Below are positions 1,486-27,295 of a DNA stretch of 30,404 bases, one piece after another. The notes under the pieces are model-generated. The model was not told the DNA's origin and searched no databases. It worked only from the letters and a program-made list of their open reading frames with translations. Source of the DNA: a virus; IMG/VR virus record IMGVR_UViG_3300032304_001283, positions 1 to 30,404 of that record; one strand, written 5' to 3'. The first letter of the stretch is position 1. Each line of letters begins with the position of its first letter. The translations under genes and the position numbers were made by a program.

Positions 1486-1860
1486 ATGGCAGGAAACTCA
1501 AGCACATATTATCTAGGTACTACTCCTACAGAAGGTCTAGGCAACAGTCCTCGATATTGGTATGCCCTACGTAGAAACGAAGATGGTGAAATATTTTTAG
1601 TAAGAAGCGATCAAATTATTGACAGAGATGCCTACGAGTTAAATATTCCAGGTCCATCAGAAGAAGACTTTGATACATTCGTTGTAGGAGTAGATTATTT
1701 AGATGGTATCGATGCTACTCACGAACTAGTAAAAGAAAACATGTTTTATCCTCAATATCGTTGGGACGATAGATCGTTGTTCTACTACGTTGATAGCGAA
1801 GGAATGTTTATTGTAAGAATCAACAAAGGATACACATATCCCACAGGAATTAGTTCATAA
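1486..1860 (+). CDS. Conserved small virion protein, function unknown
   Basis: The protein has 124 residues and is acidic and Tyr-rich, with YYLGTTPTEGLGNSPRYWYA at the start and RWDDRSLFYYVDSEGMFIVR near the end. A good ribosome-binding site (AAGGAGA) lies just before ATG 1486. It resembles an unnamed conserved protein found next to giant fibre genes in T4-like marine phages, but I cannot name it. Its LGTTPTE segment is encoded by the same 19 bases that encode VGTTPTD in the preceding gene. There is no signal peptide, membrane segment or enzyme motif. Placement between fibre genes suggests a virion component or fibre assembly factor. Confidence 0.55.
   Translation: MAGNSSTYYLGTTPTEGLGNSPRYWYALRRNEDGEIFLVRSDQIIDRDAYELNIPGPSEEDFDTFVVGVDYLDGIDATHELVKENMFYPQYRWDDRSLFYYVDSEGMFIVRINKGYTYPTGISS
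1514..1532 (+). repeat. 19-base direct repeat, second copy
   Basis: This is the second exact copy of the 19-base sequence at 1180-1198, 334 bases downstream. The two host proteins otherwise show no obvious similarity, so the shared bases may mark local sequence exchange or a shared docking motif. Confidence 0.8.
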
Positions 1861-1874
1861 ACTAGGATTAAGAA

Positions 1875-4800
1875 ATGGCAGAGTTTAAAATAACAAGATT
1901 TAGATACACCTGGAAAGGCAACTGGGCCGCACTAGATGATTCTACATTATACTATAAAGATGATGTAGTTTATTACAGTGGCTCTGCTTGGGTCTGTATT
2001 AGACAACACGTACCAACTTTGTTTGAAGAAAATCAGCTATTCACTCCCCCCGGCGATACCGATGCAGCTCCAGCATGGACAAAAATGGTCGAAGGTCGAG
2101 ATTGGGCAGACCAATGGACCACCGGAGTATTATACGAGCCCGGTCAATTGGTATTGGCCGGCGGAAATGTCTACCTTTGCGTAGCTTCACACACTGCATC
2201 TACAAACTTTAACAGTGATTTAATCAAATGGGAAATTTTTGCTACCGGAAGTAACTTTAGGAATACATGGACTACTGATACTAGATATCGAGTAGGCGAT
2301 GCTATAAGATACAACGGATACACATATCAGTGTACACTAGAGCATACTTCAGGCACAATATCCGAAGGTATTTCGGTAGGCAACAATGACACAGTAGAAG
2401 ACAGCACAGCAGAAACTTGGTCAACAATAGTAGAAAATTATACATATGTTGGGGCATATCAAACTTCTACACGTTATAGAAAGAATGATCTAGTAAAATA
2501 CGGTGGTAGTATCTTAAAATGTATCACCGAGCATACATCATCGGCTATCTCAGAACAAATTACAAACGCAAATTTTCAAACATACCTCGCCGGATTTGAA
2601 TTTGATAATCAATGGAATTCTACTACCTATTATGCCATAGGGGATGTTACAAGATATGGTGGAATCGTATATGTTGCCGCAGAGAATAATTATAATAGCC
2701 AACCCGGAGTCAACATTATCAATGATAATGGAAATTCCGCATGGACTGTGATAATCAAAGGAGTAAACTTCCGCGGTGAATACGATTCACAAGGTAATGA
2801 ACAATATCAAGAAGGCGATATTGTAAGACGCGGCGGGGCATTATGGGTTAGTTTAACTAATCAGTTTGCCGATGATAGTAGTTTAACGCCATTAGATACA
2901 TCTAATTGGCAGTTACAGATAGCTGCTCAAAATGCTAGAGGCAGCTGGAGAATAGACCAAGCCTATAATTTATACGACATTGTCTATTTTAAAGGAACAG
3001 TATACTACTCAAATGTTTCCCATAACAGCACATTTGAAAACTTTCCAGGAGACAACAGCAACGGTATAGATTACTGGACCACAGTGTTAGTTGGTGATCA
3101 AAATGCTGCTCTAACAATATTAGGTGATTTACTAACCTATAATTTAACACGCAATGTTTTAGAAGATGGTAGCACACAATTTACACTAGGCGATGGAAGT
3201 ACTTTTGGCACAACCGCAGTGCCCATCGGCGCAACAGATCAGCTACTGGTAGTAGAAGATAATGCAGGTAGTATCGGTTATAAAACCTGGGGAAATGTTG
3301 CAAGATTATTTTATGTCGCCACAGACGGAGTAGATGATAGCACAGATCCAAACAGAGGAATAAACTATTTTAAACCCTTCCGTACTGTGCGCTATGCATT
3401 AGAATATGCAGACGACGGATTTGCAGGTAGAACTACAATTAGTGTGCGTACAGGTGAATACTACGAAATACTACCTTTGATTGTGCCAGCAGGAACAGCG
3501 GTGGTAGGCGAAGAATTAAGATCTACCACTATTAGAGCCAGTGAACCAATCGCAGCGTTGGCCACCGATGCAGAATATACTCTAGAAACTTTGACTAGAA
3601 TTGGTACATTATTATCAAACATTATTCAAGGTGTTGTAGTTTTGGTATCTGCAGGAAATACTCAACCTCAAATTACATCATCACCGTCGACAAACATAGC
3701 AGCAGGTGTTGTAAACGATGTTTGGGCCGATATAATTGACACCATAGACTTTATGGTTAACGATATAGGAGCAATGCCAACTGTTACCGGATCTAATACG
3801 TTAACTATAGACTCGGGAAGATTATTAGCCGTTGATATTTTAGAAGCTAACAGAGAATTTATAAAAGTAGAAGCTATTGCATTTATGGCAGTAACAAATC
3901 CTCTGTACATATTTGACACTAGCAAGTGTCGTAGAGATCTAGATCGATTTATTGATGCGGTAAAATATGATTTGCGATATCCTGGAAATTACAAATCTGT
4001 ACTAGCTGGTAGATACTATGCTAATGCGGTAATTGGAAGTCAACTAGAAGACATGTTCTATGTTAGAGATACCTGCGGCATTAGAAATCTTACACTAAAG
4101 GGATTAGCCGGAACATTGCCTCCCCTAGTTGAAGGTGATGTTTATAGAATCCCTACAGGAGGAGCATTTGTCAGCCTAGACCCAGGATGGGGACCAGATG
4201 ACCAGCGAGTGTGGATCATAAACAGAAGTTGTTATGTACAAAACGTTACAACCTTTGGAGTAGGAGCAGTAGGCCAAAAAGTAGACGGATTGTTGCATAA
4301 TGGTGGTAACAAATCTATTGTCAGTAACGACTTCACACAAGTAGTATCAGACGGTATCGGTGCGTGGATGCTTAACGGCGGCCGCGGTGAACTTGTGTCG
4401 GTGTTTAGCTACTATGCACACATTGGTATGTTTTCTCAAGATGGTGGTATCATCCGTGCAACCAACGGTAACAGTTCTTATGGAGACTTCGGCGCAGTTG
4501 CTGATGGAATCGATCCCGACGAAACTGTGAGGTTTGGACAACTTAATACCAGAACAGAGCAGGCTGTTGTGGTTTCAGCATTTGCTGGAGAAATTTTAGA
4601 TTTTATTCTAGCACTTGAATTTGCTAACTGCGGCCAGAATTACACTTCAGCAGAGTATACAATTACTAGTTCAGGTGCAGGAGCCGTCGCGATACAAGAA
4701 GAATTTAGAGATAACGCCATGTTTGAATGTCTGATTTTGACATCCGGCAGCGGATTTAATCAGTACGGTAACCAAGCACAGTTTGGCGGAACATTATCTA

Positions 4801-7409
4801 TTACGTTGGCCACAGCCGAAACAGTTATTGAAGCTGACATACTTGGCATGCGAATAATTATTATATCAGGCGAAGGTACAGGTCAGTATGGATATGTTTA
4901 TTCATATAACCCTTCAACAAAACTGTGTACCGTTTACAGAGAAAGCGATGATTTACCAGGTTGGGATCATATTGATCCAGGCACCCCATCAAATCCACTG
5001 TTAACTGCTGGTACACGCTATCGTATTGAACCAAGAATTGCATTTAGTCCTCCTCCGTACTCGGCCGAAGCAATAGCATTAACAGAACCAAATGTATGGG
5101 CAGCAGCAGTCTACGGTGAAACTAGCCAAACATTTATCAATGTAACAGGCACTGTTGGCACAGGTACTACTGTAGACATTGTTCCAGCTGCTGCTAGATT
5201 TACCGTGGTAAAAACCGGAAGAACTTATTCAATTACACAGACCAATGGCGGTGCAGGATATGAAGTGGGCGATACTATAACCATTGACGGTAATGATGTT
5301 GGTGGAACAATAGTCGAACACGATATAGTACTCACAGTCACTGATGTATCAGACGACAGTACTAATTCAGTACTAGCATTTATAATAGCTGACGATAGTT
5401 TAATTGCTGCTAGTGGCAAATTTATTCTAGCACCACCTGCTGGGCACTTTGGCAAATACTCCTCGGACGGGCAAACCTGGGCAAGTTTTGATTTTCCTAC
5501 AGACGGAAACTGGAAATGTCTAGCAGCAGGAGATAATAAATTTGTTGCTATAGCAAATAATTCTAGTGATGCAGCCAGCAGCACTAACGGAATAGATTGG
5601 ACAGCACAATTTATGCCAGCTTCAAGAAACTGGAACGGAGTTGTTTACGGTAAACCTTCCACAGCGGCTACAGGGATATTTGTAGCAGTAGCAGGCAACT
5701 TAAATTCTGCAGCACGTTCTACCAATGGTATAGATTGGACATTTTCAACAATGCCCACAGTCGGCGACTCTACTCTAAATGAATGGGTTGATATTACATT
5801 TGGTTTAAATAAATTTATAGCCATAGCCAATTCAGGTAACATTGCAGCAGAAGGATTATGGGACGGTACAAGCCTAACCTGGTCTGGATACATCATGGAC
5901 GTGGTTGCAGACTCCTCAGCGAAAGATTGGGTATCTGTGGCCTACGGTAATAAAAGATTTGTTGCTATAAGCAGCACAGGTGATGTGGCCTACAGTGCTG
6001 ATGGTAGAGATTGGAAGCCAGCGACTTTGCCTACACAGGACGGGTCAACAACACACAACTGGAAACAGATTAGATACGGTCAAGGAGTTTTCTTTGCTGT
6101 AGGCGACACTGGATCGAAGACTGTGGGAGCAGAACCAACTACTGGACCAACAACCTACGCTGCTACTTCATATGACGGCATTGTATGGACTGAAAGAACT
6201 TTGGCTTCAGAACTAAATTGGGGAGTAATAGCATTTGGTAATCCAGATATTACTCTAGGCGATAGTACTTTAACTAACAGTAAACCGACTTGGATTGTAA
6301 CATCCTCTACATCTAGTGATACTATTAATCGAGTGTATACCGGAGCTAGAGCATTAGGTCGAGTAGTTGTTGGAGGAGAGGGCATATCTTCTATAAAGAT
6401 TTGGGAACCAGGCAGCGGATATACATTAGATCCTGTTATGACCTTAACCGATCCGGGCAAAATTCTTGATCCGGTGTATAAGCCAAGATTAGCAGATGGC
6501 TCTCTAGCGCAGCCGACACTCATCACTAAGGGAACTTCTTATAAAACCAGTACCACATCGGTAACTATTGTCGGAGACGGCTTTGCTGATATAATTCCTG
6601 TAGGTAGATTTATCACTGTAGATGATCTAGATTTTGTACCAGGCCCAGGGGCACAATTTTATATTGCAGGAAGACAAAATTATTTTGTTGCAGTGCTTGT
6701 GGGAATTAACGAACAAGTATTGCCCAATGGAAAAATTCGATCAAATTTCCAACTCAGTCCTAGACCCGATATAGGAGATTTTCTAGAACACGGTATGGAA
6801 GTTCTTATCAGAGAACGATACAGCCAGGTTCGTATTACAGGTCATGATTTCTTAGACATAGGTTCAGGTAATTTTGAAGAAACTAATTATCCTGATCTGT
6901 ATGTAAATTATGATTTTACTACAGCACCATTCCAGGAAGTACAAAATCTTAATGGCGGCCGGGTATTCTACACCTCTTCCGACCAAGATGGTAACTTCCG
7001 TGCAGGTGAACAATTTGCAGTAGAACAAGCCACTGGTGTTATTACTATCAGTGCCGACTTTTTCGATCTAGCAGGCCTTACAGAATTACGATTATCGGGT
7101 ATTAATGTAGGATCTACAGCAGTAATTAGAGAATTTAGTAAAGACCCACTATTTTTACAAAATTCAAATAATGTAATTCCAACGCAACGTGCTATTAGAG
7201 CCTATTTGAATTCTAGGCTAAACGTTGGAGGTGAAGATTTATTAACTCCTAGTATTATTGCAGGTACAGTAAAAGTGGGGCCAAACTTAATTAGTAATAC
7301 AGCAGCATTAACTATAACTGTTCCGGTAATAGCTGAATTTGATGGTAGCGGAGCCGGAGTTAGTGGAAGTTTAGTAGCACAGACTATGTTCTTCAGAAGT
7401 TTTAGATAA
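1875..7409 (+). CDS. Giant modular tail fibre / beta-helix adhesin (1844 aa)
   Basis: Domains in order: MAEFK start; seven W/Y-rich modules at about residues 5-407 (core YxxGDxVxYxGxxYxC followed by HT), resembling small carbohydrate-binding CBM5/12-like repeats; a pectate-lyase-like beta-helix entry near 477 (FYVATDGVDD, then PFRTVRYALEYA) with ISVRTGEYYEILPLIVPAGT near 521; one helical insert with KCRRDLDRFIDAVKYDL near 685; a conserved helix core near 785-880 (YYAHIGMFSQDGG, NSSYGDFGAVADGID); five or six Asp-box-like motifs at about 1196-1435 (SSDGQTW, STNGIDW twice, SADGRDW, SYDGIVW), suggesting a propeller; and a conserved C-terminal segment near 1693 (GGRVFYTSSDQDGNFR) and 1768 (PTQRAIRAYL). 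It is paralogous to the next gene throughout. It probably binds or degrades a host surface glycan. Hydrolase activity is not shown by any catalytic motif I can identify. Confidence 0.85.
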   Translation: MAEFKITRFRYTWKGNWAALDDSTLYYKDDVVYYSGSAWVCIRQHVPTLFEENQLFTPPGDTDAAPAWTKMVEGRDWADQWTTGVLYEPGQLVLAGGNVYLCVASHTASTNFNSDLIKWEIFATGSNFRNTWTTDTRYRVGDAIRYNGYTYQCTLEHTSGTISEGISVGNNDTVEDSTAETWSTIVENYTYVGAYQTSTRYRKNDLVKYGGSILKCITEHTSSAISEQITNANFQTYLAGFEFDNQWNSTTYYAIGDVTRYGGIVYVAAENNYNSQPGVNIINDNGNSAWTVIIKGVNFRGEYDSQGNEQYQEGDIVRRGGALWVSLTNQFADDSSLTPLDTSNWQLQIAAQNARGSWRIDQAYNLYDIVYFKGTVYYSNVSHNSTFENFPGDNSNGIDYWTTVLVGDQNAALTILGDLLTYNLTRNVLEDGSTQFTLGDGSTFGTTAVPIGATDQLLVVEDNAGSIGYKTWGNVARLFYVATDGVDDSTDPNRGINYFKPFRTVRYALEYADDGFAGRTTISVRTGEYYEILPLIVPAGTAVVGEELRSTTIRASEPIAALATDAEYTLETLTRIGTLLSNIIQGVVVLVSAGNTQPQITSSPSTNIAAGVVNDVWADIIDTIDFMVNDIGAMPTVTGSNTLTIDSGRLLAVDILEANREFIKVEAIAFMAVTNPLYIFDTSKCRRDLDRFIDAVKYDLRYPGNYKSVLAGRYYANAVIGSQLEDMFYVRDTCGIRNLTLKGLAGTLPPLVEGDVYRIPTGGAFVSLDPGWGPDDQRVWIINRSCYVQNVTTFGVGAVGQKVDGLLHNGGNKSIVSNDFTQVVSDGIGAWMLNGGRGELVSVFSYYAHIGMFSQDGGIIRATNGNSSYGDFGAVADGIDPDETVRFGQLNTRTEQAVVVSAFAGEILDFILALEFANCGQNYTSAEYTITSSGAGAVAIQEEFRDNAMFECLILTSGSGFNQYGNQAQFGGTLSITLATAETVIEADILGMRIIIISGEGTGQYGYVYSYNPSTKLCTVYRESDDLPGWDHIDPGTPSNPLLTAGTRYRIEPRIAFSPPPYSAEAIALTEPNVWAAAVYGETSQTFINVTGTVGTGTTVDIVPAAARFTVVKTGRTYSITQTNGGAGYEVGDTITIDGNDVGGTIVEHDIVLTVTDVSDDSTNSVLAFIIADDSLIAASGKFILAPPAGHFGKYSSDGQTWASFDFPTDGNWKCLAAGDNKFVAIANNSSDAASSTNGIDWTAQFMPASRNWNGVVYGKPSTAATGIFVAVAGNLNSAARSTNGIDWTFSTMPTVGDSTLNEWVDITFGLNKFIAIANSGNIAAEGLWDGTSLTWSGYIMDVVADSSAKDWVSVAYGNKRFVAISSTGDVAYSADGRDWKPATLPTQDGSTTHNWKQIRYGQGVFFAVGDTGSKTVGAEPTTGPTTYAATSYDGIVWTERTLASELNWGVIAFGNPDITLGDSTLTNSKPTWIVTSSTSSDTINRVYTGARALGRVVVGGEGISSIKIWEPGSGYTLDPVMTLTDPGKILDPVYKPRLADGSLAQPTLITKGTSYKTSTTSVTIVGDGFADIIPVGRFITVDDLDFVPGPGAQFYIAGRQNYFVAVLVGINEQVLPNGKIRSNFQLSPRPDIGDFLEHGMEVLIRERYSQVRITGHDFLDIGSGNFEETNYPDLYVNYDFTTAPFQEVQNLNGGRVFYTSSDQDGNFRAGEQFAVEQATGVITISADFFDLAGLTELRLSGINVGSTAVIREFSKDPLFLQNSNNVIPTQRAIRAYLNSRLNVGGEDLLTPSIIAGTVKVGPNLISNTAALTITVPVIAEFDGSGAGVSGSLVAQTMFFRSFR
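1890..3095 (+). repeat. Seven W/Y-rich modules in the first giant fibre
   Basis: Seven units of about 50-65 residues each start with a W near 'W--sT-Y' followed by YxxGDxVxYxGxxYxC-like cores (for example YRVGDAIRYNGYTYQC, YRKNDLVKYGGSILKC) and often HTS. They resemble short carbohydrate-binding modules of the chitin-binding type 3 kind. Later units lose the Cys and His. Confidence 0.7.
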
Positions 7410-7435: not shown

Positions 7436-10400
7436 ATGGCAGAATTTAAATTAGGTAGGATCAGATTTGTATGGAAGGCAGCTTGGGCAACCAGCACTAC
7501 ATACTACAAAGATGATGTAGTTAGATTTGGCGGCAAAGTATATGTCTGTCAAATAGGACATACTGCATCTGCTGATTTTAACACAGATCTAGACGTAGTT
7601 CCAACTAAATGGAATCTAATGGCTGACGGCCAACGTTGGAGAGATGTGTGGGCAACCAGCACTGTGTACCAAGAAGGCGACCTAGTAAAATACGGTGGTA
7701 CAATATACATTTGTATAGACAGCCATACTTCTGCCGCCACTGTTACTCTAGGATTAGAAGCCAACACTGCTGCATGGAATCAATTTGTTGAAGGTACAGA
7801 CTGGAAAGATGTGTGGACTATTTCAACAAGATACAAACTCAACGACATTGTAAGATACGGCGGCATCAACTATATTTGTATCACTGGTCATACAAGTGCT
7901 GCTACTGCTGCTCTAGGATTAGAAAATTCTTCTGCTAATTGGCAGGTGTTTACTCAGGGTCAAGAATATCTAGGAACTTGGGGCACTGCACCATCTACTA
8001 GATACAAACTCAACGACATTGTAAAATATGGTGCTGGTCTTTGGATTTGCACAACGCAACACACAGCCGGTGCTACATTTGCAGGCGATGCCGCAAACTG
8101 GGCACAGTATGTTGAAGGATTTGAATATGAAAATATCTGGAGTTCAGCAACTGCCTATCAACCGGGTGATGTGGTCAAGTACGGCGGTAATAATTATGTG
8201 TCAAAGACACAGCACACAAATTCAAATCCTCTAACAGGATCCGCTAACTGGGATCTGTTTTCACAAGGTCTAAGTTATCAATCAGATTGGTCTAACACAA
8301 CTTCTTATAAAATAGGCGAGGTTGTTAAGTTAAACGGTTATAACTATTTGGCCGTTGCTGACAGTCCGAGCACAGCATTCACAGTTACCGCAGTGACTGC
8401 CGCTAACGATCAGTTTACTATAGCTGACACCACAGGTATTATAGTAGGTATGACTGTGAGGTTTACAGGCACTACCTTTGGCGGAGTGTTTACTTCTGGT
8501 AGATACTATGTTAAAACTGTAGCAGCAGGTAATATCACAATCAGCACAACTAGTGGTGGAACAACATTTAATGTTACAGCAGATGCCGCAGGCTCGATGA
8601 CCGCTACAGTTTCTGCAGAACCACCAAACACAATTTATTGGGCGGCAATTAGCCATGGAATCTTCTGGAGAGGTGATTGGGCAGATGACACAGAATATAA
8701 TCTCGGCGATGCTGTAAAATACGGATCTAATTCTTATATCTGCTTATTGGCACATCGTGCAGAAAGTGATGATGGTTCTACACTCGGAGCACAAGGTGGT
8801 GGACAAGCAAATAGTCGCCCAGACCTCGATATCACTGGCATATATTGGGATGCATTAACTATAGGAAGTGAATTATCAGTGTTGACCACAACCGGCGACA
8901 TGGTATATTATGGCGGAGCAGGTCCTACAAGACTACCAGTAGGCACAGAAGGTCAAGTTTTAAGAGTTGGTTCAGCAGGTATTCCTGAGTGGGTAACTTA
9001 CGGTGAGATTAAAAATGTCTATTATGTTTCGCCGGCAGGTGAAGATCGTCCATATCCAGCATGCGGTAATTCCATAGATAAACCTTGGCAGACTATTCGC
9101 TATGCCTGCGAACAGATTGAAAAGGGTCCAAGAAACCCTAACGCACAACATCTACTAGAACTAAATCGCGCATTTATACAAAAAGAAATCACAGCTTGGA
9201 TTAGAACACAAATTTCTGCAGCACTAATCGGCGAACTTTGGTATAATTTTGATTATGACGAATATAAATGTGAGCGAGATGTTGGATTTATCATCGATAG
9301 ATTAATTTGGGATATCGGCCACGACGGCAACCTAAAAATGAGAGCCGCAGCTTTCAGCTTGCTAGGAGCATTTGGTGAGGCTGGAGAATTCTCTGCGCCA
9401 GAAGAAAGTACACCTTATGTTACACTGGCAGCAGAAGCAGACGAAGGTGTTGCAGCCTATGAACAATTAAAATTGTTAGTGGCAGATGTATTGGCCAATG
9501 AAGTTCCAACTACAGTATACCAAACATTGGCCTTAGACTCTACAGCTATTGTCGCTCAGTATATTAACACTGACTATGTGGCTGAAACTGGGATTACTAC
9601 TACTACAGATAGTCTTATAGACATCGTTATAACTGCACTGGAAGATCAAGACACAGATGCTCTTCCGGCAAGACTTGTGCCTAACAACACAATTAATATT
9701 AAGACAGGACAGTACAGAGAAACATTACCTATCATTGTTCCAGCAGAAACTGCACTAGTCGGTGATGAAAAGCGTTCAACAAACGCAGGACCAGCAGGTA
9801 GTCTAATCAGCCGCGATGATGCTAGATACAGCGTTGGAGCATTAGGTCGATTAGAAACTGTAGTTGGACAGATTATTCTAGGTACAAATGTAACTGAAAG
9901 CGCAGGCAATACTGCTATTCAAAATGCAGCAGTTCCTTTTGCCAGTGCTCCTGAAGTAACTAACATCCAGCGATTAGTCAGAACCATCCAACACCAGATT
10001 GATTTTAAAATTGGTACAAATATATTAGAAACCGTAACTAATCCTACAGGGTATAATATAGGATTTTTAGCAGGGTACGGAGATGCACGTAGCTTGTTGA
10101 GAGAAAACAAAGAATTTCTAAAGGACGAAATTACAGCTTTTATTGCTGTGAATTTTCCTGCAGTAAAATATAGCAAAACCAAATGCCGTAGAGACATCGG
10201 ATTTATAGTAGATGCAGTATGTTATGATTTAACATACGGTGGCAGTTATCAAACACTAACTGCGGGACTGGCTTATTTTGATGGCAATGCTAGCACTGAC
10301 TTGCAAATTGACAGTACTGAAGTAGCTGCTACTGTTGCTTCTTACAGCAGATTAAAAACAGTTATGCAACAGATCATTGCCAATACTACAGTTACTAAAT

Positions 10401-13400
10401 CTATCGGTAATGCAGCAACTCAGTGGACTGATAGTACTAATTTAACTGGCGGAGCCGGTGCTAATACCGCTGTAGGCAGTCTTGTAGATATTATTATCAA
10501 CATTATTCAGGGAGATTCAACCGCAAGTTTAACTCCTCAGATCAATGTCACTCAGATAGCAACACTTAATACATTTACATCTAATAGTCACGGACTACTA
10601 GTTGGCGATGCTATAGTTCCAAGAACCACCGCCAACGGATTAACCGCAGGCACAAAATATTGGGTAGTAGGAACAGTTAACACAAATACTTTTCAGCTTG
10701 CAGCCACATATGGCGGATCAGTACTAGCTTCGTTTACCAACGGCAGCGGTCTAGATTTAGACTTTGAAATCATCGACTACCCAACAGCAACTGACGCTGT
10801 TACATCAACAACTGCACTCATAGCTGCCGCAGTGACTTTAGATGCTGCACAAGAAACAATAGTTGCTGCCGCTACCACTTACATTACCACTAACTTCCCT
10901 ACGTTAGTTTATAACTCAGCTAAGTGTCAACGAGATGTAAGATTGATTCTTGAAGCAGTGATGTTTGACTTCATGTTTAACAGCAACAGTCTAACACGTA
11001 CCGCAGCATATTCATACCTAAGAGCATCGGCTAGCGATGTGTTTAGTCTGAATCAGAAAACAGCCACTCGTGCAGCATTTAGCTATGTGGCCACACAGGC
11101 AGCAGCCAACGTTGGCGGCAATGCTACAGCACAGACTCGTATTGCTACACTAATGTCACTGTTGGACGATATTGTCTACGGTGCGACTAATGAAGGCAGC
11201 ATATGTCAAACTGAAATTCGTGCTGCTGACTATGCTCGATTACAGTTAGAACGCAATAGAGCGTACATTGTATCTGAAATCACAGCCTATGGTGCTGCTA
11301 CATATACAACATCAGTTACTGCAACTACAGCAGCCACAGATGTATTCACCTGCGCAGATACTAGCTGGATGCAACGTAATGCATCAATTAGATTTACAGG
11401 AACTGTATTTGGTGGAGTAGACACCGGCACAACTTATTATATACAAAACGTAGTAAGTGCCACAACATTTAAGATTGCAGCTACAAGAAATTCAAATACT
11501 GCGTTTGATGCATCAGTAGGTACTGGTACTATGACCGTAAGTTTATATTATCCAGTTGGAGAATGCGAACGTGATGTTAATGCTTACATCGATGCACTGA
11601 AATTTGATTTGCAATATCCAGGAAACTATAAGTCAAGAATGGCTGCAAGATATTATGCCAACGCGGTTATGGGAAGCCTAGAAGAAGATATGTATTATCT
11701 GCGTAACGGTACTGGTGTACGTAATCAGACTCTACAAGGGCTCACAGGAGATCTACTAGCTGAGAACGAATTCGGTACTTCTAGAGTATCTGCCGGAGCA
11801 TACTGTTCTCTAGATCCAGGTTGGGGACCAGATGACTTCCGTACATGGATCATCGGTCGTTCTCCTTATGTACAAAACGTGGCTACATTTGGGTATGCTG
11901 CGGTTGGTCAAAAGATTGACGGTGCCTTGCATAATGGTGGTAATGATTCTATCGTTAGCAACGACTTTACACAAATCATATCAGATGGCATCGGTGCTTG
12001 GATAACCAACAACGGTCGTGCTGAATTAGTTTCGGTGTTCTCATACTACGCACACATCGGATACTTGGCAGAGAACGGTGGACGTATTCGTGGCACTAAC
12101 GGTAACAACTCCTACGGTGACTTTGGATCTGTGGCAGAAGGATTTGACGCAACAGAAACTCCTATACTCTGCGAAGTTGATAATTCAGCATTTAGAGCCA
12201 CTGTGGGATCAGTGATCACTGATGGTATCGATAAGATTTATCAGTTCGAATACGACAATGCAGGCACAGACTATACCGAAATAACATGGTCAGTATCAGG
12301 CAGTGGAGCAGGAATAGAAACTGAACAAGACGACTTCCGCGACGGTGCTGTGTTCCAAGTTAGATTGTTAGATAATTTTGAAGATTCAACCACAGCCCCT
12401 GAAGCAGATGGAAACTTTGGTGGCAGCGGATATCTTTCTAATGCCAACACTGCACAGAGTGGAACAACCACATCACTTACTCTAGCAGCCACTGATGATG
12501 AAATCACTGGCGCTTATGTAGGTATGAAGTTAATTATCACAGCAGGAGCTGGCGCTGGACAGGTTGGCATAGTATCTGCATTTACAGCTGGTACTAAATT
12601 AGCTACTGTAAACAAAGAAAGCACAGGCGCTGCTGGGTGGGACCATTTGGTTCCAGGAACTGCTATCGTAGCACCTGATGCATCATCAACATATAGTATT
12701 GAACCAAGAGTCACGTTTACTGCACCGACATATAGCAGTGCTTCGAGAACATTAGGCACCGCTCAGACCTATACTGATGCAACATTTGCACCTACTTTTG
12801 CAGTCTACTCGCCAATCTCTTCTACATCTAGTGGAAGCGGAGTATCAGCTACATTTACAGTAGTAAGAAAAGGCACAAAATACTCTGCCGTTAATATTGT
12901 TGCCGCAGGTACAGGCTATGCAAGATTAGACACTGTTACTATTGCTGGTACCAGTCTAGGCGGCGCAGCACCGTCTAACAACATCACGGTTACTATAACC
13001 GCAGTTGATTCTACAACCGGCGCTATTACCGCACTTGAGTTCGCAGGGGTAGGCGCAGGTGGTAAATTCGTAGCAATAGCCAGCGGTTCAAGAACTACTA
13101 ACACTTCTACAAACGGTACTACCTGGAGTGAAAATCTACTAGCACTGCCTAGCACTTCAAACTGGACTTCAGTAGCAGCTGGTAAATTGACTGTGGTAGA
13201 GACTGCAGGTACATTTGTAATTGGTAGAGCATATCGTATAACTTCATTAGGTAATACTGTGTATACCAGCATTGGAGCTACAACTAATCTAGTAGGTATA
13301 TACTTTGTGGCCACAGGAGCAGGTGCTGGCACAGGTACTGCAACACCAGTAGCTAATCACTTGGTAGCAATCTCAAGCAGCACAACTGTTACTTCTTATA

Positions 13401-15118
13401 GCACCGACGGTGGCACAACATGGACCGCCGGCGGATCATTACCTGGAGGGATTTCAGGAACAGCAGTATCAGTGACATACGGAGTATACAACGGCAACGG
13501 TCGTTGGATGGCATTGGGGTCAAGCGGTGCATCAGCTTATAGTGCCACTGGTGGTACGTCTTGGGTGGCAGGTGGAGCAGTTGGAGCAGGAACTTATACA
13601 GCAATAGCCTATGGTCAAGGGGTATTTGTGGCCATAACCACAGGTGCAACTACCACAAGAATCAGCATTGACGGCGGCCAAAACTGGATAGCAGGGGGTG
13701 CATTGCCCGCAAGTTCAACATGGATCAGCATAGCCTACGGTGCTAACAAGTTTGTTGCAGTATCTAGCGACGGCGCTGTGAATCCTGCTTACTCTGTAGA
13801 CGGAGGAGTTACTTGGAGCAATACCGATGCAGCTGGCTACCTAGGCTCAGGTACAATAACCAGTGTTCATTACGGACAGGGTGTATTTGTAGTCACAGCT
13901 TCCAGCGGCAATAACATGTCAAGTTCACAAGATGGTCTCAACTGGACCACAAGAGCAATTACTCGTGCTTCAGGAACCGGAGCACTGGCTGCTATTCAAG
14001 GCAATCCATCACAGTCAGGCATTTGGGCGATTATACCTTCAGCATCGACTACAGCAGCTTCAAGTGCTGTGATCGGAGCCACAGCTAAGGCTCGAGCGTT
14101 TATATCAGAAAACAAGATATTTGCAATCAGAGTAACCGATCCCGGATCAACCTATGCAGCAGCACCGACTATCACTATCACAGATCCTAACAATCTGTTT
14201 GAAGCTCCGACGCAGGTGAGAATAGGCAACGGTGCCTGTGCCAACGTCAGCTTTATTGATAGAGGTACTGGGTTTGATTCTGCTATAGTTGAAAAGGACA
14301 CCGGCGACGGGTATGCTAACAACTTTCAAAACGGTAAGTTTATGGGAGTTCGAAGAATGACTGGTGTGCCAAGTCCTGGAGCCAACGTGGTATTCGCTAC
14401 CCAACCTACTACAGTTTACAAGCTGGTACAGGTGATATCTGAATCTGGTGAGTTCGATGGTGCTAGGTCAGCATTTTTTCAACTGTCACCGCCGATGGAG
14501 ATATTTAACTCGCCAGCAGACGCTACTGGAATCACTACTCGAATACGATACAGCCAAGTTCGACTAACTGGACACGATTTCTTAGATATTGGTACTGGAA
14601 ATTTTGTAGAAACTAATTATCCCGGACTACCTACACAGGTGCCGGTACCGGCCAACGAAACCGTGGATCTAAACGGCGGACGAGTGTTCTACACTAGTAC
14701 TGACCAAGATGGTAACTTTAGAGTAGGTGCTTTATTCAGTATCGAACAGTCGACTGGTGTGGCAACTCTAAATGCTGATGCATTCAACATTGCAGGACTA
14801 TCAGAATTGAGCCTAGGTAACATCACACTAGGCGGCAATTCAGCTACAATCACTGAATTCTCAACAGATCCATTCTTAACAGCCAACTCAGACAACGTGG
14901 TTCCTACACAACGGGCTATTAGAGCATATATTTCTGCACAGATTGGTGGTGGCGGAGCTGCACTAAACGTAAATAGCTTGGTGGCAGGATTCGTCGAAAT
15001 TGCAGGAACACGTATTACTACCACAACAGGCGGCACAATCCAAATGAAAGCTAACTTTAACTTCCAGGCTGGAGTAAGAGGTTATCCGGTGGCTTGGAAC
15101 TACTTTTTAAATAACTAA
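7436..15118 (+). CDS. Giant modular tail fibre / beta-helix adhesin (2560 aa)
   Basis: This is a longer paralog of the preceding gene, starting MAEFKLGRIRFVWKAAWA. It has seven W/Y-rich modules at about residues 5-480, with a Thr-rich beta insert inside the sixth. A beta-helix entry lies near 528 (YYVSPAGEDRPYP) and its continuation near 752 (INIKTGQYRETLPIIVPAET). It has four helical segments of the type [KE]C-x-RDV (near 611, 916, 1163 and 1376), where its paralog has one. The conserved core is at about 1458-1570 (SLDPGWGPDDFRTWII, AHIGYLAENGGRI). Six Asp-box-like motifs lie at about 1888-2165 (for example SIDGGQNW, SVDGGVTW), interrupted near 1915-1970 by an inserted module with YRITSLGNT. 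GGRVFYTSTDQDGNFRVG is near 2413 and PTQRAIRAYIS near 2491. A good RBS (GGAG) precedes ATG 7436. It is predicted to be a trimeric adhesin at the tail or baseplate. Confidence 0.85.
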   Translation: MAEFKLGRIRFVWKAAWATSTTYYKDDVVRFGGKVYVCQIGHTASADFNTDLDVVPTKWNLMADGQRWRDVWATSTVYQEGDLVKYGGTIYICIDSHTSAATVTLGLEANTAAWNQFVEGTDWKDVWTISTRYKLNDIVRYGGINYICITGHTSAATAALGLENSSANWQVFTQGQEYLGTWGTAPSTRYKLNDIVKYGAGLWICTTQHTAGATFAGDAANWAQYVEGFEYENIWSSATAYQPGDVVKYGGNNYVSKTQHTNSNPLTGSANWDLFSQGLSYQSDWSNTTSYKIGEVVKLNGYNYLAVADSPSTAFTVTAVTAANDQFTIADTTGIIVGMTVRFTGTTFGGVFTSGRYYVKTVAAGNITISTTSGGTTFNVTADAAGSMTATVSAEPPNTIYWAAISHGIFWRGDWADDTEYNLGDAVKYGSNSYICLLAHRAESDDGSTLGAQGGGQANSRPDLDITGIYWDALTIGSELSVLTTTGDMVYYGGAGPTRLPVGTEGQVLRVGSAGIPEWVTYGEIKNVYYVSPAGEDRPYPACGNSIDKPWQTIRYACEQIEKGPRNPNAQHLLELNRAFIQKEITAWIRTQISAALIGELWYNFDYDEYKCERDVGFIIDRLIWDIGHDGNLKMRAAAFSLLGAFGEAGEFSAPEESTPYVTLAAEADEGVAAYEQLKLLVADVLANEVPTTVYQTLALDSTAIVAQYINTDYVAETGITTTTDSLIDIVITALEDQDTDALPARLVPNNTINIKTGQYRETLPIIVPAETALVGDEKRSTNAGPAGSLISRDDARYSVGALGRLETVVGQIILGTNVTESAGNTAIQNAAVPFASAPEVTNIQRLVRTIQHQIDFKIGTNILETVTNPTGYNIGFLAGYGDARSLLRENKEFLKDEITAFIAVNFPAVKYSKTKCRRDIGFIVDAVCYDLTYGGSYQTLTAGLAYFDGNASTDLQIDSTEVAATVASYSRLKTVMQQIIANTTVTKSIGNAATQWTDSTNLTGGAGANTAVGSLVDIIINIIQGDSTASLTPQINVTQIATLNTFTSNSHGLLVGDAIVPRTTANGLTAGTKYWVVGTVNTNTFQLAATYGGSVLASFTNGSGLDLDFEIIDYPTATDAVTSTTALIAAAVTLDAAQETIVAAATTYITTNFPTLVYNSAKCQRDVRLILEAVMFDFMFNSNSLTRTAAYSYLRASASDVFSLNQKTATRAAFSYVATQAAANVGGNATAQTRIATLMSLLDDIVYGATNEGSICQTEIRAADYARLQLERNRAYIVSEITAYGAATYTTSVTATTAATDVFTCADTSWMQRNASIRFTGTVFGGVDTGTTYYIQNVVSATTFKIAATRNSNTAFDASVGTGTMTVSLYYPVGECERDVNAYIDALKFDLQYPGNYKSRMAARYYANAVMGSLEEDMYYLRNGTGVRNQTLQGLTGDLLAENEFGTSRVSAGAYCSLDPGWGPDDFRTWIIGRSPYVQNVATFGYAAVGQKIDGALHNGGNDSIVSNDFTQIISDGIGAWITNNGRAELVSVFSYYAHIGYLAENGGRIRGTNGNNSYGDFGSVAEGFDATETPILCEVDNSAFRATVGSVITDGIDKIYQFEYDNAGTDYTEITWSVSGSGAGIETEQDDFRDGAVFQVRLLDNFEDSTTAPEADGNFGGSGYLSNANTAQSGTTTSLTLAATDDEITGAYVGMKLIITAGAGAGQVGIVSAFTAGTKLATVNKESTGAAGWDHLVPGTAIVAPDASSTYSIEPRVTFTAPTYSSASRTLGTAQTYTDATFAPTFAVYSPISSTSSGSGVSATFTVVRKGTKYSAVNIVAAGTGYARLDTVTIAGTSLGGAAPSNNITVTITAVDSTTGAITALEFAGVGAGGKFVAIASGSRTTNTSTNGTTWSENLLALPSTSNWTSVAAGKLTVVETAGTFVIGRAYRITSLGNTVYTSIGATTNLVGIYFVATGAGAGTGTATPVANHLVAISSSTTVTSYSTDGGTTWTAGGSLPGGISGTAVSVTYGVYNGNGRWMALGSSGASAYSATGGTSWVAGGAVGAGTYTAIAYGQGVFVAITTGATTTRISIDGGQNWIAGGALPASSTWISIAYGANKFVAVSSDGAVNPAYSVDGGVTWSNTDAAGYLGSGTITSVHYGQGVFVVTASSGNNMSSSQDGLNWTTRAITRASGTGALAAIQGNPSQSGIWAIIPSASTTAASSAVIGATAKARAFISENKIFAIRVTDPGSTYAAAPTITITDPNNLFEAPTQVRIGNGACANVSFIDRGTGFDSAIVEKDTGDGYANNFQNGKFMGVRRMTGVPSPGANVVFATQPTTVYKLVQVISESGEFDGARSAFFQLSPPMEIFNSPADATGITTRIRYSQVRLTGHDFLDIGTGNFVETNYPGLPTQVPVPANETVDLNGGRVFYTSTDQDGNFRVGALFSIEQSTGVATLNADAFNIAGLSELSLGNITLGGNSATITEFSTDPFLTANSDNVVPTQRAIRAYISAQIGGGGAALNVNSLVAGFVEIAGTRITTTTGGTIQMKANFNFQAGVRGYPVAWNYFLNN
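7451..8875 (+). repeat. Seven W/Y-rich modules in the second giant fibre
   Basis: Units follow the same plan as in the first fibre (YQEGDLVKYGGTIYIC, YKLNDIVRYGGINYIC, YQPGDVVKYGGNNYV). Modules 3 and 4 contain an exact 25-base repeat (7829-7853 and 8000-8024) whose first copy begins agatacaaactc. Module 6 carries an extra Thr/Gly-rich insert of about 80 residues. Confidence 0.7.
9151..11620 (+). repeat. Four-copy helical RDV segment in the second giant fibre
   Basis: Four copies pair a charged helix (ELNRAFIQKEITAWI; RENKEFLKDEITAFI; DAAQETIVAAATTYI; ERNRAYIVSEITAYG) with a [KE]C-x-RDV helix (KCERDVGFIIDRLIWD; KCRRDIGFIVDAVCYD; KCQRDVRLILEAVMFD; ECERDVNAYIDALKFD). The first giant fibre has a single copy near residue 685. 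Confidence 0.75.
13183..13350 (+). repeat. Inserted YRITSLGNT module within the propeller-like region
   Basis: About 56 residues (FVIGRAYRITSLGNTVYTSI, then YFVATGAGAGTGTATP) interrupt the Asp-box series of the second giant fibre and are missing from its paralog. Similar 'YrI-s-G-T-f--iGa' units recur in marine phage tail proteins, as I recall, so this looks like a shuffled module. Confidence 0.55.
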
Positions 15119-16397: not shown

Positions 16398-17012
16398 ATG
16401 GCAACTCTGTTAAACACAACGGTACAAGGTACTACATCAGTAAGAATTCCTATTGGCACAACTGCTGAGCGGCCATCACCGCTAACTGGTATGTTGAGGT
16501 ATAATTCCTCTACCCGTGTTCCTGAACTTTATGAACCATCCGGAATATGGGATCCGTTATACCCCCCTGGATCTATTATGTATTTCGCTAGAAACTCAGC
16601 GCCTGACGGATGGCTTAAGGCCAACGGTGCTAGTATATCGACTACAACCTATGCAGCTCTGTTTGCCAACATTGCCTACGCCTGGGGCGGTAGTGGCGGA
16701 TCATTTAACGTACCTGATCTCAGAGGCGAGTTTCCAAGATCTTGGGATGACGGCCGCGGAGCGGATTCAGGACGAGCCTTTGCCAACCAGCAAGGACAAG
16801 ATTGGAAAGGATTTTATCAAAGCAACGTTGGATCAAACACAACAGCATACAGCCATGGACCAGTCTACATGGGCAAAACTATATTTGGTACATTTACAGG
16901 TAACGTTTTTGGTGGACACTGGGCCGCTCCTGCCGCAGCGACAGGTACCGGTTGGGATGGTTCAGAAGTTCGCCCAAGAAATAGAGCACTTTTAGCTTGT
17001 ATTAAATATTAA
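16398..17012 (+). CDS. Tail-collar domain adhesin, copy 1
   Basis: The 204-residue protein starts MATLLNTTVQGTTSVRIPIG, followed by a stem motif (GMLRYNSSTRVPELYEPSGI). A phage tail-collar domain (Pfam Collar type, as in T4 short tail fibres and microcystin-dependent-like proteins) spans about residues 56-115: PPGSIMYFARNSAPDGWLKA, STTTYAALFANIAYAWGG and FNVPDLRGEFPR. The C-terminus carries SHGPVYMGK and RPRNRALLACIKY, a typical receptor-binding tip end. It is one of three paralogs (with 17401-18015 and 18028-18639) and is separated from copy 2 by a probable assembly chaperone. It starts four bases after the S74 fibre stop. It probably contributes to host recognition. Confidence 0.85.
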   Translation: MATLLNTTVQGTTSVRIPIGTTAERPSPLTGMLRYNSSTRVPELYEPSGIWDPLYPPGSIMYFARNSAPDGWLKANGASISTTTYAALFANIAYAWGGSGGSFNVPDLRGEFPRSWDDGRGADSGRAFANQQGQDWKGFYQSNVGSNTTAYSHGPVYMGKTIFGTFTGNVFGGHWAAPAAATGTGWDGSEVRPRNRALLACIKY

Positions 17013-17400: not shown

Positions 17401-18015
17401 GTGGCTATATTACAAGGATTAACAGTTGACGATACTGGGTTTTTAAGATTACCAGTTGGGACTACTGGTCAACGACCTGGTAGTCCGGTTGTGGGTATGT
17501 CTAGATTAAACACCACAACGAGTCAAAACGAATGGTATGACGGTACTGCCTGGATTGAGTTAGTTCCAACTGGCGCTATTAGATATTTCGCTAGAAACTC
17601 AGCACCTGACGGATGGCTCAAAGCCAATGGTGCTGGTATTTCAACCACAACCTATGCTAATTTATTTGCAGTAATTGGCTATGCTTGGGGTGGTGGCGGA
17701 GCAACATTTAACGTTCCCGACTTTCGTGGAGAGTTTCCGAGAGTGTGGGATGACGGCCGCGGAGTTGATTCCGGGAGAGCTCTTACAACAGCACAGGCTC
17801 AAGACTGGAAAGGGTATTACATGACCAACACTGCTAGTGGTTCATTTTCATACAGTCATGGTCCAGTTTATATGGGAAAATCAATATTTCCTTCACATAC
17901 TGGAAATTTGTTTACAGGATACTGGGCTGCTCCTAGTTCTGCATGGGGCACTGCATGGGACACATCAGAAATTCGTCCTAGAAATGTGTCGTTGTTAGCT
18001 TGTATTAAATATTAA
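17401..18015 (+). CDS. Tail-collar domain adhesin, copy 2
   Basis: This 204-residue paralog of the collar adhesin at 16398-17012 starts at GTG 17401 after AAGGA. It keeps the stem segment (GMSRLNTTTSQNEWYDGTAW), the collar domain (ARNSAPDGWLKANGAGIS, YANLFAVIGYAWGG, FNVPDFRGEFPR) and the tip end (SHGPVYMGK, RPRNVSLLACIKY). The segment between, MTNTASGSFSYSHG, differs from the other copies, as does WAAPSSAWGTAWDTSEI. The first 20 residues have diverged, while the collar core stays nearly identical at the DNA level to copy 1, which suggests selection or gene conversion on the core. Confidence 0.85.
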   Translation: MAILQGLTVDDTGFLRLPVGTTGQRPGSPVVGMSRLNTTTSQNEWYDGTAWIELVPTGAIRYFARNSAPDGWLKANGAGISTTTYANLFAVIGYAWGGGGATFNVPDFRGEFPRVWDDGRGVDSGRALTTAQAQDWKGYYMTNTASGSFSYSHGPVYMGKSIFPSHTGNLFTGYWAAPSSAWGTAWDTSEIRPRNVSLLACIKY

Positions 18016-18027
18016 AAGGAAAGAGCA

Positions 18028-18639
18028 GTGGCAACGTTAAAAAATATTACAATTAACGACACGGGAGCATTTACATTCCCATCGGGCACTACAGCTCAGC
18101 GACCAACTGCTGCTACAGGAATGATTAGATTTAATACATCTATTAGTGCTCCTGAGTTTTATGATGGAGCAATTTGGACCCCTCTAATTCCAACCGGAGC
18201 TATAGAATTATTTGCTACAACTACAGTTCCTCCAGGGTGGCTCAAAGCCAATGGTGCCAGCGTATCAACTACTACCTATGCAGCGTTATTTGCTAATATT
18301 GGATATACCTGGGGTGGTAGTGGCGGATCATTTACCTTGCCCGACCTTAGAGGCGAATTTATACGAGGCTGGGACGACGGACGTACAGTAGACAGTGGTC
18401 GAGGTTTCGCTAGTTTTCAAGATCAAGATTGGAAAGGATTTTATCAAACAAACACTGGATCAAATACAACCGGGTATAGTCACGGTCCGGTCTACATGGG
18501 CAAGGATTTATTCGGTACGCATACTGGAAATTTATTCGGCGGGCGTTGGCAAGCACCTGCGGCCGGTCAAGGCTATGCTTGGGATACTGGAAATACCCTC
18601 CCAAGAAATCGTGCAGTAATGGCCTGTATTAAATACTAA
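18028..18639 (+). CDS. Tail-collar domain adhesin, copy 3
   Basis: The third collar paralog has 203 residues and starts at GTG 18028 after AAAGGA. It carries the stem piece (GMIRFNTSISAPEFYDGAIW), a collar domain (ELFATTTVPPGWLKANGASV, YAALFANIGYTWGG, FTLPDLRGEFIRGWDDGR) and the tip end (SHGPVYMGKD, LPRNRAVMACIKY). It is the most diverged of the three at the start of the collar domain (FATTTVPPGW where the others read FARNSAPDGW), yet its QDQDWKGFYQTNTGSNTT part is closer to copy 1. It is the last virion-type gene on the left. The next gene starts 43 bases on and belongs to the accessory region. Confidence 0.85.
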   Translation: MATLKNITINDTGAFTFPSGTTAQRPTAATGMIRFNTSISAPEFYDGAIWTPLIPTGAIELFATTTVPPGWLKANGASVSTTTYAALFANIGYTWGGSGGSFTLPDLRGEFIRGWDDGRTVDSGRGFASFQDQDWKGFYQTNTGSNTTGYSHGPVYMGKDLFGTHTGNLFGGRWQAPAAGQGYAWDTGNTLPRNRAVMACIKY

Positions 18640-22566: not shown

Positions 22567-24207
22567 TTAGTTCCCTACCATTTTGTTAATTTCGGGGAAC
22601 CATACAACGTCAAGATTAGATTTATGCAATATTTCTAATGCTTCATTTGGTTCTTCGATGAGCGGTTGTCCAGCTAGATTAAAACTAGTGTTAAGTAATA
22701 CTCCGTGTCCTGATACTTTCTTAAACTCTTTTAACAGTTCGTATATGTGTCCGTCTTCATCCGATACTGTTTGTATACGACATGTGTTGTCAGCATGAAC
22801 TACTCCAGATATTAACTCTCTTGCATTTTCTAAAACAGGAAAACTAATAGTCATGAACGGACACTCTTTGATATTCCCTAAATCAAAATACATGGAAGCA
22901 TCTTCTTTAAGTACCATAGCTGCAAACGGTCTGTACCATTCACGATTTTTAATTTTGTTTACAATATCTTTGGCATCTGGATTAAGCGGATTAAACAGAA
23001 TACTTCGATTGCCCAGTGCTCTTGGACCGCTTTCTGCGAGACCGTTATACACTCCGACACTATTATTATCAGCAAGTAACCTAGCTATATCAATAATCGA
23101 GCAAGTGGAACCTTCCACCATTGACAAATCTGCAGGTTTTCCATGTATAAATGTATTTTTTATTTTTCTAATAGTAGAATCCTGCGTTTCCATGCGATAA
23201 TACAACATTGCCATCCCTATACTATTGCCGGAGTCGTCTGCCAGCGGTTCAAAGTAAAATTCAACATCGGGAAACTGTGTAGTATAATAATGATTGGCGA
23301 CAATGTTCAATCCATAGCCGCCTGTTATGCAAATCTTTTTTAAATTTGTTTTCTCAATCGCTTTTCTAATCAACGAACACACTGCTTCTTGTGTTTGCTT
23401 TTGTACCTGGTAAGCGTAGTCTGCGTACATTTGATAGTTTTCTTTTGTTATAAATCGCTGAGAATGCTTTCTAAGTTTTCGATTAGCTGCCCTCCAGTAC
23501 CCGTCAAGCGGCTCTCTTTCAAATAACATGTCATTCGGAATGTTATCGTGTGAAAATAACTTAGGAGGATTTTCCATCGGATTGCCGTATGAAGCTAATC
23601 CCATGGTCTTTCCGTTTTCTAAAATATGCTGTTCGATAAGAGTAGTTGCTGTTTCATACACAGTAACTACACCAAATAAACTCTTGCTAGAATATTCACA
23701 TTTGGTATTATCACTTTGACGCTGGAGCCACTCTAGAGATTCTCTTTTAAATTCATCTTGCCAGTATTGTTTATACACTTCAACAAAGTTTGCCGGATAA
23801 CTTGCCGCGTAAATTGATTCGGACTCTCTTAAAGAATCAGCATGAACAGTTCCGCTTCGGTCAATAACTATTATCGCTGCTTTGTCAAACCCGCTGTTAT
23901 AAAAAGCTAAACTGGCATGCTGTACATGATGATTTTTCGATAGGTCGAGAACCACTGGAACGTTTGCTCTCTTTTTTAAGTAATTTAACCAAGTAACTAA
24001 TTCAGGATGATCACACGCAGGCGCTCCGACAACAGCCCCGTCGATGGGGCCTTTGGCTTCTTGTATTGCTCGTTCAACCGCAAGAAAAGGATTTGCATCT
24101 CTTTTTTTCTTTGAGAGGCGTTCTTCTTTATAAAATACTTCAATTTCTCCGTTGTTAATAATTGCAACAGAGCTGTCATGTAGTGGGCTTACTCCAAGTA
24201 TTCTCAT
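22567..24207 (-). CDS. Carbamoyltransferase, NodU/CmcH/TobZ family
   Basis: This 546-residue enzyme is near full family length. The N-terminal Kae1-like domain begins MRILGVSPLHDSSVAII and has the metal-site pattern His93-His94-x2-His97 (NHHVQHASLAF) with Asp116 in IIVIDRSG. It continues with GKTMGLASYG and ICITGGYGLNIVANH. The C-terminal NodU domain carries ESGPRALGNRSIL near residue 390, YRPFAAMVL, and LLNTSFNLAGQPLIEEP near 500. Known relatives use carbamoyl phosphate and ATP to carbamoylate hydroxyl groups on sugars, antibiotics or Nod factors. In this operon it sits between a halogenase and two hydroxylases, and hydroxyl groups made by an oxygenase would be natural acceptors (inference). 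It starts one base after the upstream halogenase stop. Confidence 0.9.
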   Translation of the reverse strand: MRILGVSPLHDSSVAIINNGEIEVFYKEERLSKKKRDANPFLAVERAIQEAKGPIDGAVVGAPACDHPELVTWLNYLKKRANVPVVLDLSKNHHVQHASLAFYNSGFDKAAIIVIDRSGTVHADSLRESESIYAASYPANFVEVYKQYWQDEFKRESLEWLQRQSDNTKCEYSSKSLFGVVTVYETATTLIEQHILENGKTMGLASYGNPMENPPKLFSHDNIPNDMLFEREPLDGYWRAANRKLRKHSQRFITKENYQMYADYAYQVQKQTQEAVCSLIRKAIEKTNLKKICITGGYGLNIVANHYYTTQFPDVEFYFEPLADDSGNSIGMAMLYYRMETQDSTIRKIKNTFIHGKPADLSMVEGSTCSIIDIARLLADNNSVGVYNGLAESGPRALGNRSILFNPLNPDAKDIVNKIKNREWYRPFAAMVLKEDASMYFDLGNIKECPFMTISFPVLENARELISGVVHADNTCRIQTVSDEDGHIYELLKEFKKVSGHGVLLNTSFNLAGQPLIEEPNEALEILHKSNLDVVWFPEINKMVGN

Positions 24208-24208
24208 A

Positions 24209-27294: not shown

Positions 27295-27295
27295 C

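Follow-up and report, generated by a model that had tools for sequence, protein, structure and literature searches.

What is the role of a run of carbohydrate-binding-like modules at the very start of a viral tail fibre? The question is raised by a viral DNA of 30,404 nucleotides, the whole of which is called the window here. A preliminary description had placed seven repeat units at positions 1890-3095, likened them to chitin-binding type 3 modules, found their N-terminal placement surprising, and offered three roles: a flexible aromatic stalk, polysaccharide binding, or service as acceptors for nearby halogenases. The units lie in a tail fibre, P0001, which neighbours a paralogous fibre, P0002. 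The features referred to below are as follows.

1486..1860, + strand: 124-aa ORF immediately 5' of P0001; PHROG 8997
1875..7409, + strand: P0001, ORF for a tail fibre of 1844 aa; PHROG 9851 tail fibre protein, E 1.6e-140
1875..1907, + strand: N-terminal tip of P0001, MAEFKITRFRY, a putative docking peptide
1908..2096, + strand: unit 1 of P0001, aa 12-74, CBM5/12-like; found by the P0002-units HMM; the most position-specific unit
2103..2249, + strand: unit 2, aa 77-125; Pfam and P0002-units HMM
2253..2435, + strand: unit 3, aa 127-187; top Pfam match within P0001, 34 bits
2442..2594, + strand: unit 4, aa 190-240; Y195, L214 and F234 at the core places, instead of W, Y and W
2598..2762, + strand: unit 5, aa 242-296, lacking the His; model of 244-297 resembles chitinase C 1wvv_B, Z 8.2
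2766..2918, + strand: unit 6, aa 298-348, lacking the His; Pfam and P0002-units HMM
2937..3095, + strand: unit 7, aa 355-407; model of 355-405 resembles chitin deacetylase 4nz4_A, Z 8.8, 1.0 Å over 48 residues
3300..4544, + strand: beta-helix-like body of P0001, aa 476-890, with a helical insertion at about aa 557-701; VIA matches
6792..7232, + strand: conserved C-terminal domain of P0001, aa 1640-1786; 38-48% identity to fibres of named cyanophages and a pelagiphage
7436-15118: P0002, neighbouring paralogous fibre of 2560 aa; PHROG 9851 tail fibre protein, E 4.7e-169
7472..8866, + strand: seven-unit array of P0002, paralogous to that of P0001; Pfam E 1e-37
about 8372-8620, + strand: insertion of about 80 residues splitting unit 6 of P0002

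The CBM5/12-like units of two adjacent fibres

The seven units occupy aa 12-407 of P0001 (window 1908-3095), in agreement with the coordinates given earlier. They are 49-67 residues long, number seven in each of P0001 and P0002, and are joined by only a few residues; an 11-residue tip precedes them in both fibres (MAEFKLGRIRF in P0002). The Pfam profile CBM_5_12 (PF02839; curated cut-off 26.2 bits) scores above its cut-off against both whole P0001 (74.6 bits, E 6.2e-21) and P0002 (128.3 bits). Across the window it finds 13 places, six in P0001 and seven in P0002, with unit 1 of P0001 absent from the 13; seven of these score at or above the cut-off, in one case only jointly with its neighbours. 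An HMM built from the P0002 units alone gives 183.5 bits against residues 1-412 of P0001 and finds all seven units singly (13.7-40.2 bits). The rest of P0001 (residues 413-1844) scores 0.7 bits against it, and of 1000 residue shuffles 774 scored, the best at 8.0 bits, and 226 gave no score. The motif by which the units had been recognized, YxxGDxVxYxGxxYxC with HT, holds as a consensus only: the aligned His is present in five of the seven P0001 units (N272 and Q330 replace it in units 5 and 6), exact HT in three (units 2-4), and the Cys, two places past the aligned Tyr/Trp/Leu, in four (units 1-4).

Both sequence and predicted fold thus bear out the likeness to chitin-binding type 3, or CBM5/12, modules. 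An AlphaFold2 monomer of P0001 1-412, folded from a 31-row alignment from which seven phage-record rows were omitted, consists of repeated beta modules (mean pLDDT 78.3, pTM 0.50); in the model, where mainly units 5 and 7 were compared by VIA, these are small twisted beta-sandwiches of the chitinase-module type. Chitin-binding matches to the array model include chitin deacetylase (Z 8.8), chitinase C (8.2), and ChiA1 (5.5), and a tail fibre chain of phage A-1(L) is matched at Z 8.0 (1.1 Å over 49 residues). Further matches are a contractile injection system (CIS) cap protein (Z 6.9), Cis13 (6.2), the 7-7-1 fibre (5.9), the Pam1 tailspike (5.7), the Milano spike (5.6), KP1 (4.9), and Carin 1 (4.0). 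A VIA Z under 8 is weak taken alone and may reflect merely a common arrangement, but the 7-7-1 and Cis13 proteins are matched independently by sequence profiles: the array profile matches residues 29-103 of the 7-7-1 long tail fibre at E 1.2e-5 (unit profile, E 0.0099), and the unit profile matches residues 38-63 of Cis13/All3316 at E 3.9e-4 (array profile, E 0.039). For the Milano spike the sequence match is suggestive only (unit profile, E 0.19; array profile, E 0.056); antibody chains are present from E 0.016 onward in the unit-profile search. Among the predicted viral proteins of BFVD there are 79 matches at E <=0.001, and some of the labels among the best 50 of these are ChiC_BD, CBM 5/12, and collagen-like fibre.

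Core residues and ligand aromatics

The CBM12 of ChiA1 binds its ligand through the Trp of a W-x-P sequence six places after the His. In CBM5, an exposed pair, Y-W or W-W, is part of the ligand surface, and a conserved Tyr and Trp belong to the core (PMC8449059). Modules were scored as carrying a ligand signature if they had the Y/W-W pair of CBM5 or, at six residues past the His, the W-x-P of CBM12. The bacterial control modules, extracted with Pfam, come from six genomes, of which five are Vibrio, and are not a random sample: the two genomes that gave matches among the 56 of the class were supplemented with four further Vibrio genomes. Phage modules were deduplicated from 565 to 436, one of which was unscored in the signature count. 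The signature is present in 48 of the 54 bacterial modules (38 with the pair, 10 with W-x-P) versus one of 435 phage modules, and in none of the 14 units of P0001 and P0002. Trp at the sixth place after the His (H+6) occurs in none of 358 modules of the window's clade and in two over all groups (two modules without a residue at the His column); Phe occurs there in 71 of the 358.

The core, by contrast with the ligand aromatics, is kept in the phage modules: Tyr is conserved in 99%, Trp in 79% and 83% at its two columns, and Asp in 85%. By homology with the Tyr and Trp described for CBM5, the conserved Tyr and Trp of the phage units would likewise be core residues. Since the structural core is kept and the exposed sugar-gripping aromatics are absent, the units are most likely a stalk. 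It is probable that they are beads of the CBM5/12 fold that have turned structural and form the virion-side stalk of the fibre. Of the three roles first proposed, the stalk fits best, with the conserved aromatics assigned to the module core and not to its surface. Burial of the aromatics in a packing core was what the preliminary description had named as refuting its idea, and homology points to such burial. An aromatic polysaccharide-binding face in the units is not supported, and binding of chitin or cellulose as the main role is disfavoured, as the ligand aromatics are missing.

That the array binds some polysaccharide through a changed ligand and face, perhaps near a corner formed by His, Thr, and Ser, with capsule, lipopolysaccharide, or sheath glycan held by the avidity of the stalk, is unlikely. 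The units are members of CBM5/12 by sequence and fold, the Phe at H+6 could stack on a sugar, and lactic phage adhesion devices carry modules of other CBM families for which binding to cell-wall sugars has been proposed in the cited text (PMC8540738). The His-Thr-Ser corner, conserved in 66%, 55%, and 53% of phage modules, respectively, counts in favour of this proposal and against a structural reading. Set against these points are the near-complete loss of the known ligand aromatics and the sequence variation of the array, which is no greater than that of the remaining fibre: 50-aa windows of the protein within the array have a mean pairwise identity of about 0.65 versus 0.70 overall in P0001 (21 sequences), and of about 0.81 versus 0.795 overall in P0002 (12 sequences). 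Likewise, the carbohydrate-binding module at the distal end of the neck fibre of A-1(L) was reported not to bind the host (PMC10966104), and as of 2014 there was no report that tailspike head domains bind sugar (PMC3966878). The lowest identities in P0001 (0.45-0.52) fall at aa 551-700; the array as a variable receptor-binding region was rejected, as it is not the least conserved part of the protein. A bolder version, in which the array is a set of CBMs with a changed ligand whose His-Thr-Ser corners, in up to 21 copies per trimer, loosely hold host envelope or sheath polysaccharide along the whole stalk, is very doubtful; if it were true, the fibre would walk the host surface until its beta-helix part reached the receptor.

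Unit number, the fibre body, and the attached end

In tblastn searches of 50,697 phage records, the P0001 array matched 24 (15 Synechococcus, four Prochlorococcus, and one other cyanophage, two marine single-cell viruses, pelagiphage Mosig, and one Vibrio phage) and the P0002 array matched 30. The P0001 array was found at 24 IMG/VR loci and the P0002 array at 25, one locus being common to both lists, and many of these loci carry two array fibres side by side. Relatives in cellular genomes were not confirmed among the genome contigs searched with P0002 units 1-5, and the open-licence papers searched yielded no account of CBM5/12 units in tandem in the fibres of cyanophages. In the array fibres of P-SSM2, S-CAM1, S-CAM3, S-SSM7, Sf-FS3, and Mosig (PHROG 9851 type), the tip, N-terminal array, beta-helix segment, and C-terminal domain are arranged as in P0001; these phages have five or six units and one array fibre in the stretch examined, whereas the window's clade has two adjacent fibres of seven units each. 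A short ORF also precedes the cyanophage array fibres, in the same place as the 124-aa ORF of the window (position compared only).

In the distinct array ORFs of the IMG/VR loci, the window, and named records L057-L063, the first unit begins at aa 12-14. The second fibre of L028, whose coordinates were wrong, was dropped from the subsequent analysis. A tip of the form MA[ED]F is present in 17 of 19 representative array proteins, counted by eye, the exceptions being one L030 fibre and L050. Arrays of the window's clade have seven units (in one L023 fibre there is an extra partial match inside the split unit 6), those of P-SSM2, S-CAM1, S-BM3, S-CAM3, S-SSM7, and Sf-FS3 have five, that of Mosig has six, and those of L048/L049 have eight; a few distant IMG/VR fibres range from five to seven. 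The number is thus constant within a clade and ranges from five to eight across clades, which counts for the stalk reading. Counted against it are proteins of Vibrio phage XC31 and Tunturi_5 (a Tunturiibacter phage), in which units run along most of the chain. In named phages L064-L067 there are 3 to 20 units, the first of them away from the tip. Within the portion read, a 4734-aa ORF of a 195-kb relative (L129; G001:C1:66500-82500, minus strand) contains six or more scattered units. The S-BM3 array is a stand-alone protein of 297 aa, closed by a stop and containing five units (L060 7001-7894), and a separate 6.3-kb structural gene comes after it; S-BM3 is a natural split of the array from the fibre.

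Unit 1 is position-specific, its best match being another unit 1 in 258 of 342 cases; units 2-5 are less so, with same-place best matches in 144, 84, 90, and 88 of 342, as expected of a docking unit followed by spacers. As a structural stalk, the array would belong to a homotrimeric fibre whose N-terminal tip, together with unit 1, would dock it on the baseplate or on an adjacent tail protein, and units 2-7, stacked as trimeric beads, would make up a neck or stalk. Its reach would be set by the bead count; sugar would not be bound by the units, and host recognition would be left to parts further down the chain.

Of those parts, the region after the array in P0001 matches the beta-helix of the 7-7-1 fibre (9rkv_N, Z 10.8) and CBA120 TSP1 (Z 7.8) by VIA; the model of residues 400-1000 has a mean pLDDT of 52.3 and is reliable only at aa 476-730, and assignment of the region as a beta-helix is tentative and model-based. 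Residues 727-890 are conserved in cyanophage fibres. The beta-helix carries a variable, all-helical insertion with the motif KCxRD...YDLxYPGNYKS, at aa 557-701 of P0001 (about 3543-3977) and near aa 611, 916, 1163, and 1376 of P0002. VIA matches to this region from row 12 onward are mostly phycobiliproteins (Z 6.1-6.9), the Pfam Phycobilisome profile scores below its cut-off against P0002 (E 0.066 and 0.02), PF00502 is matched by two of 27 insertion members, and a five-row profile gave four weak matches, all to phycobiliproteins or their relatives (E 0.51-1.4). The 27-row profile has no phycobiliprotein match, and this lead was given up. The distal part of both fibres contains STNGxxWT-type repeats (P0001 aa 1236-1439, window 5580-6191; P0002 aa 1891-2171), perhaps a beta-propeller. 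Elsewhere in the window there are three similar tandem ORFs of 203-204 aa (16398-17012, 17401-18015, and 18028-18639); the first, which was the one submitted to the PHROG search, matches tail collar fibre PHROGs.

Placement of the stalk at the virion side can be weighed against attachment of the fibre through its conserved C-terminal domain or its side, with the N-terminal array as a free end or an adaptor to another fibre protein. The C-terminal domain is the best-conserved part between phages (38-48% identity versus 24-29% for the array from residue 1) and has matches among PHROGs with a baseplate wedge subunit annotation (E 2.2e-11 at best), the array of S-BM3 is a separate protein, and the fold is C-terminal in Pam1. 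Nevertheless, the closest solved sequence relatives are attached through the matching N-terminal part, and the C-terminal domain always co-occurs with the array in the ORFs collected, so that it is not singled out as an anchor; attachment by that end or by the side seems quite improbable. Because conservation is higher in the C-terminal domain than in the array, it was dropped as a guide to the attached end.

It is extremely improbable that the flavin-dependent halogenases use the aromatic-rich array as their acceptor and modify its Tyr or Trp: three Trp_halogenase-family ORFs do lie in the window (minus strand, 24209-29439), but about 21 kb from the P0001 array, PF04820 is found in only two of eight array-bearing phage records searched (P-SSM2 and S-SSM7; G001 may be incomplete), a co-occurrence that gives no support, the conserved aromatics would be core residues by homology, and no link from these ORFs to a protein substrate was found in the analysis. 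The three ORFs belong to a minus-strand cluster at 22567-29439 that also includes a carbamoyltransferase and a 2OG-Fe(II) oxygenase; more than one 2OG-Fe(II) oxygenase lies in the downstream region.

Comparison with known modules, fibres, and injection systems

Chitin- and carbohydrate-binding labels are frequent on phage tail fibres, and the present results suggest that the fold and its core have been reused as a structural bead by phages and contractile injection systems. The missing ligand aromatics provide a simple sequence test that may tell structural from binding copies; they also caution against inferring a host or substrate from a Pfam label. The clade-fixed bead number of five to eight offers a natural series for relating stalk length to adsorption.

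The CBM5/12 modules of chitinases and chitin deacetylases (ChiA1, 1ed7; chitinase C, 1wvv; DA1, 4ny2, with two tandem modules) share sequence profile, fold, and core Tyr and Trp with the phage units, which differ from them in lacking the ligand aromatics. The fold is common to P0001 units, the 7-7-1 long tail fibre (9rkv, Z 5.9), and the Milano tailspike gp124 (8fqc, Z 5.6), and the order of N-terminal module, beta-helix, and C-terminal domain is likewise common to P0001, 7-7-1, and Milano. Residues 1-120 of the 7-7-1 fibre are described as the baseplate anchor (PMC12796354), and residues 1-175 of gp124 as a tail-binding module composed of a pair of small domains that resemble those of CBA120 TSP1 and TSP3 (PMC10811340), compared with seven units in P0001. 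A subdomain with the fold of the ChiA1 chitin-binding domain, D2, was reported in 2014 in the head of CBA120 TSP1 (PMC3966878); like the P0001 array it lies on the virion side of a beta-helix spike, but it is a single subdomain of very low identity to the chitinase module, whereas the P0001 units are recognized by Pfam. CBM5/12-like modules at the N-terminus of a fibre are therefore not as surprising as had been supposed: solved baseplate-anchored fibres and spikes carry them there, as the 7-7-1 match and the likeness to the TSP1 head indicate.

In A-1(L), the length and residue numbers of the matched chain suggest, by our own assignment, the joint domain of short tail fibre gp33, which binds the wedges (PMC10966104). 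Cis13 (All3316), a small fibre-like protein of the thylakoid-anchored contractile injection system of Anabaena, has the fold of the P0001 units; it is described as trimeric, with N-terminal domains that bind the baseplate, and differs from P0001 in its size (154 aa) and terminal membrane helix (PMC8894136). The fold is not tied to the baseplate, as it also occurs C-terminally in the receptor-binding domain of the Pam1 tailspike (residues 586-642, Z 5.7) and in the CIS cap protein, which is not a fibre. Taken with these systems, the P0001 array is most likely a longer version of an already known fibre part.
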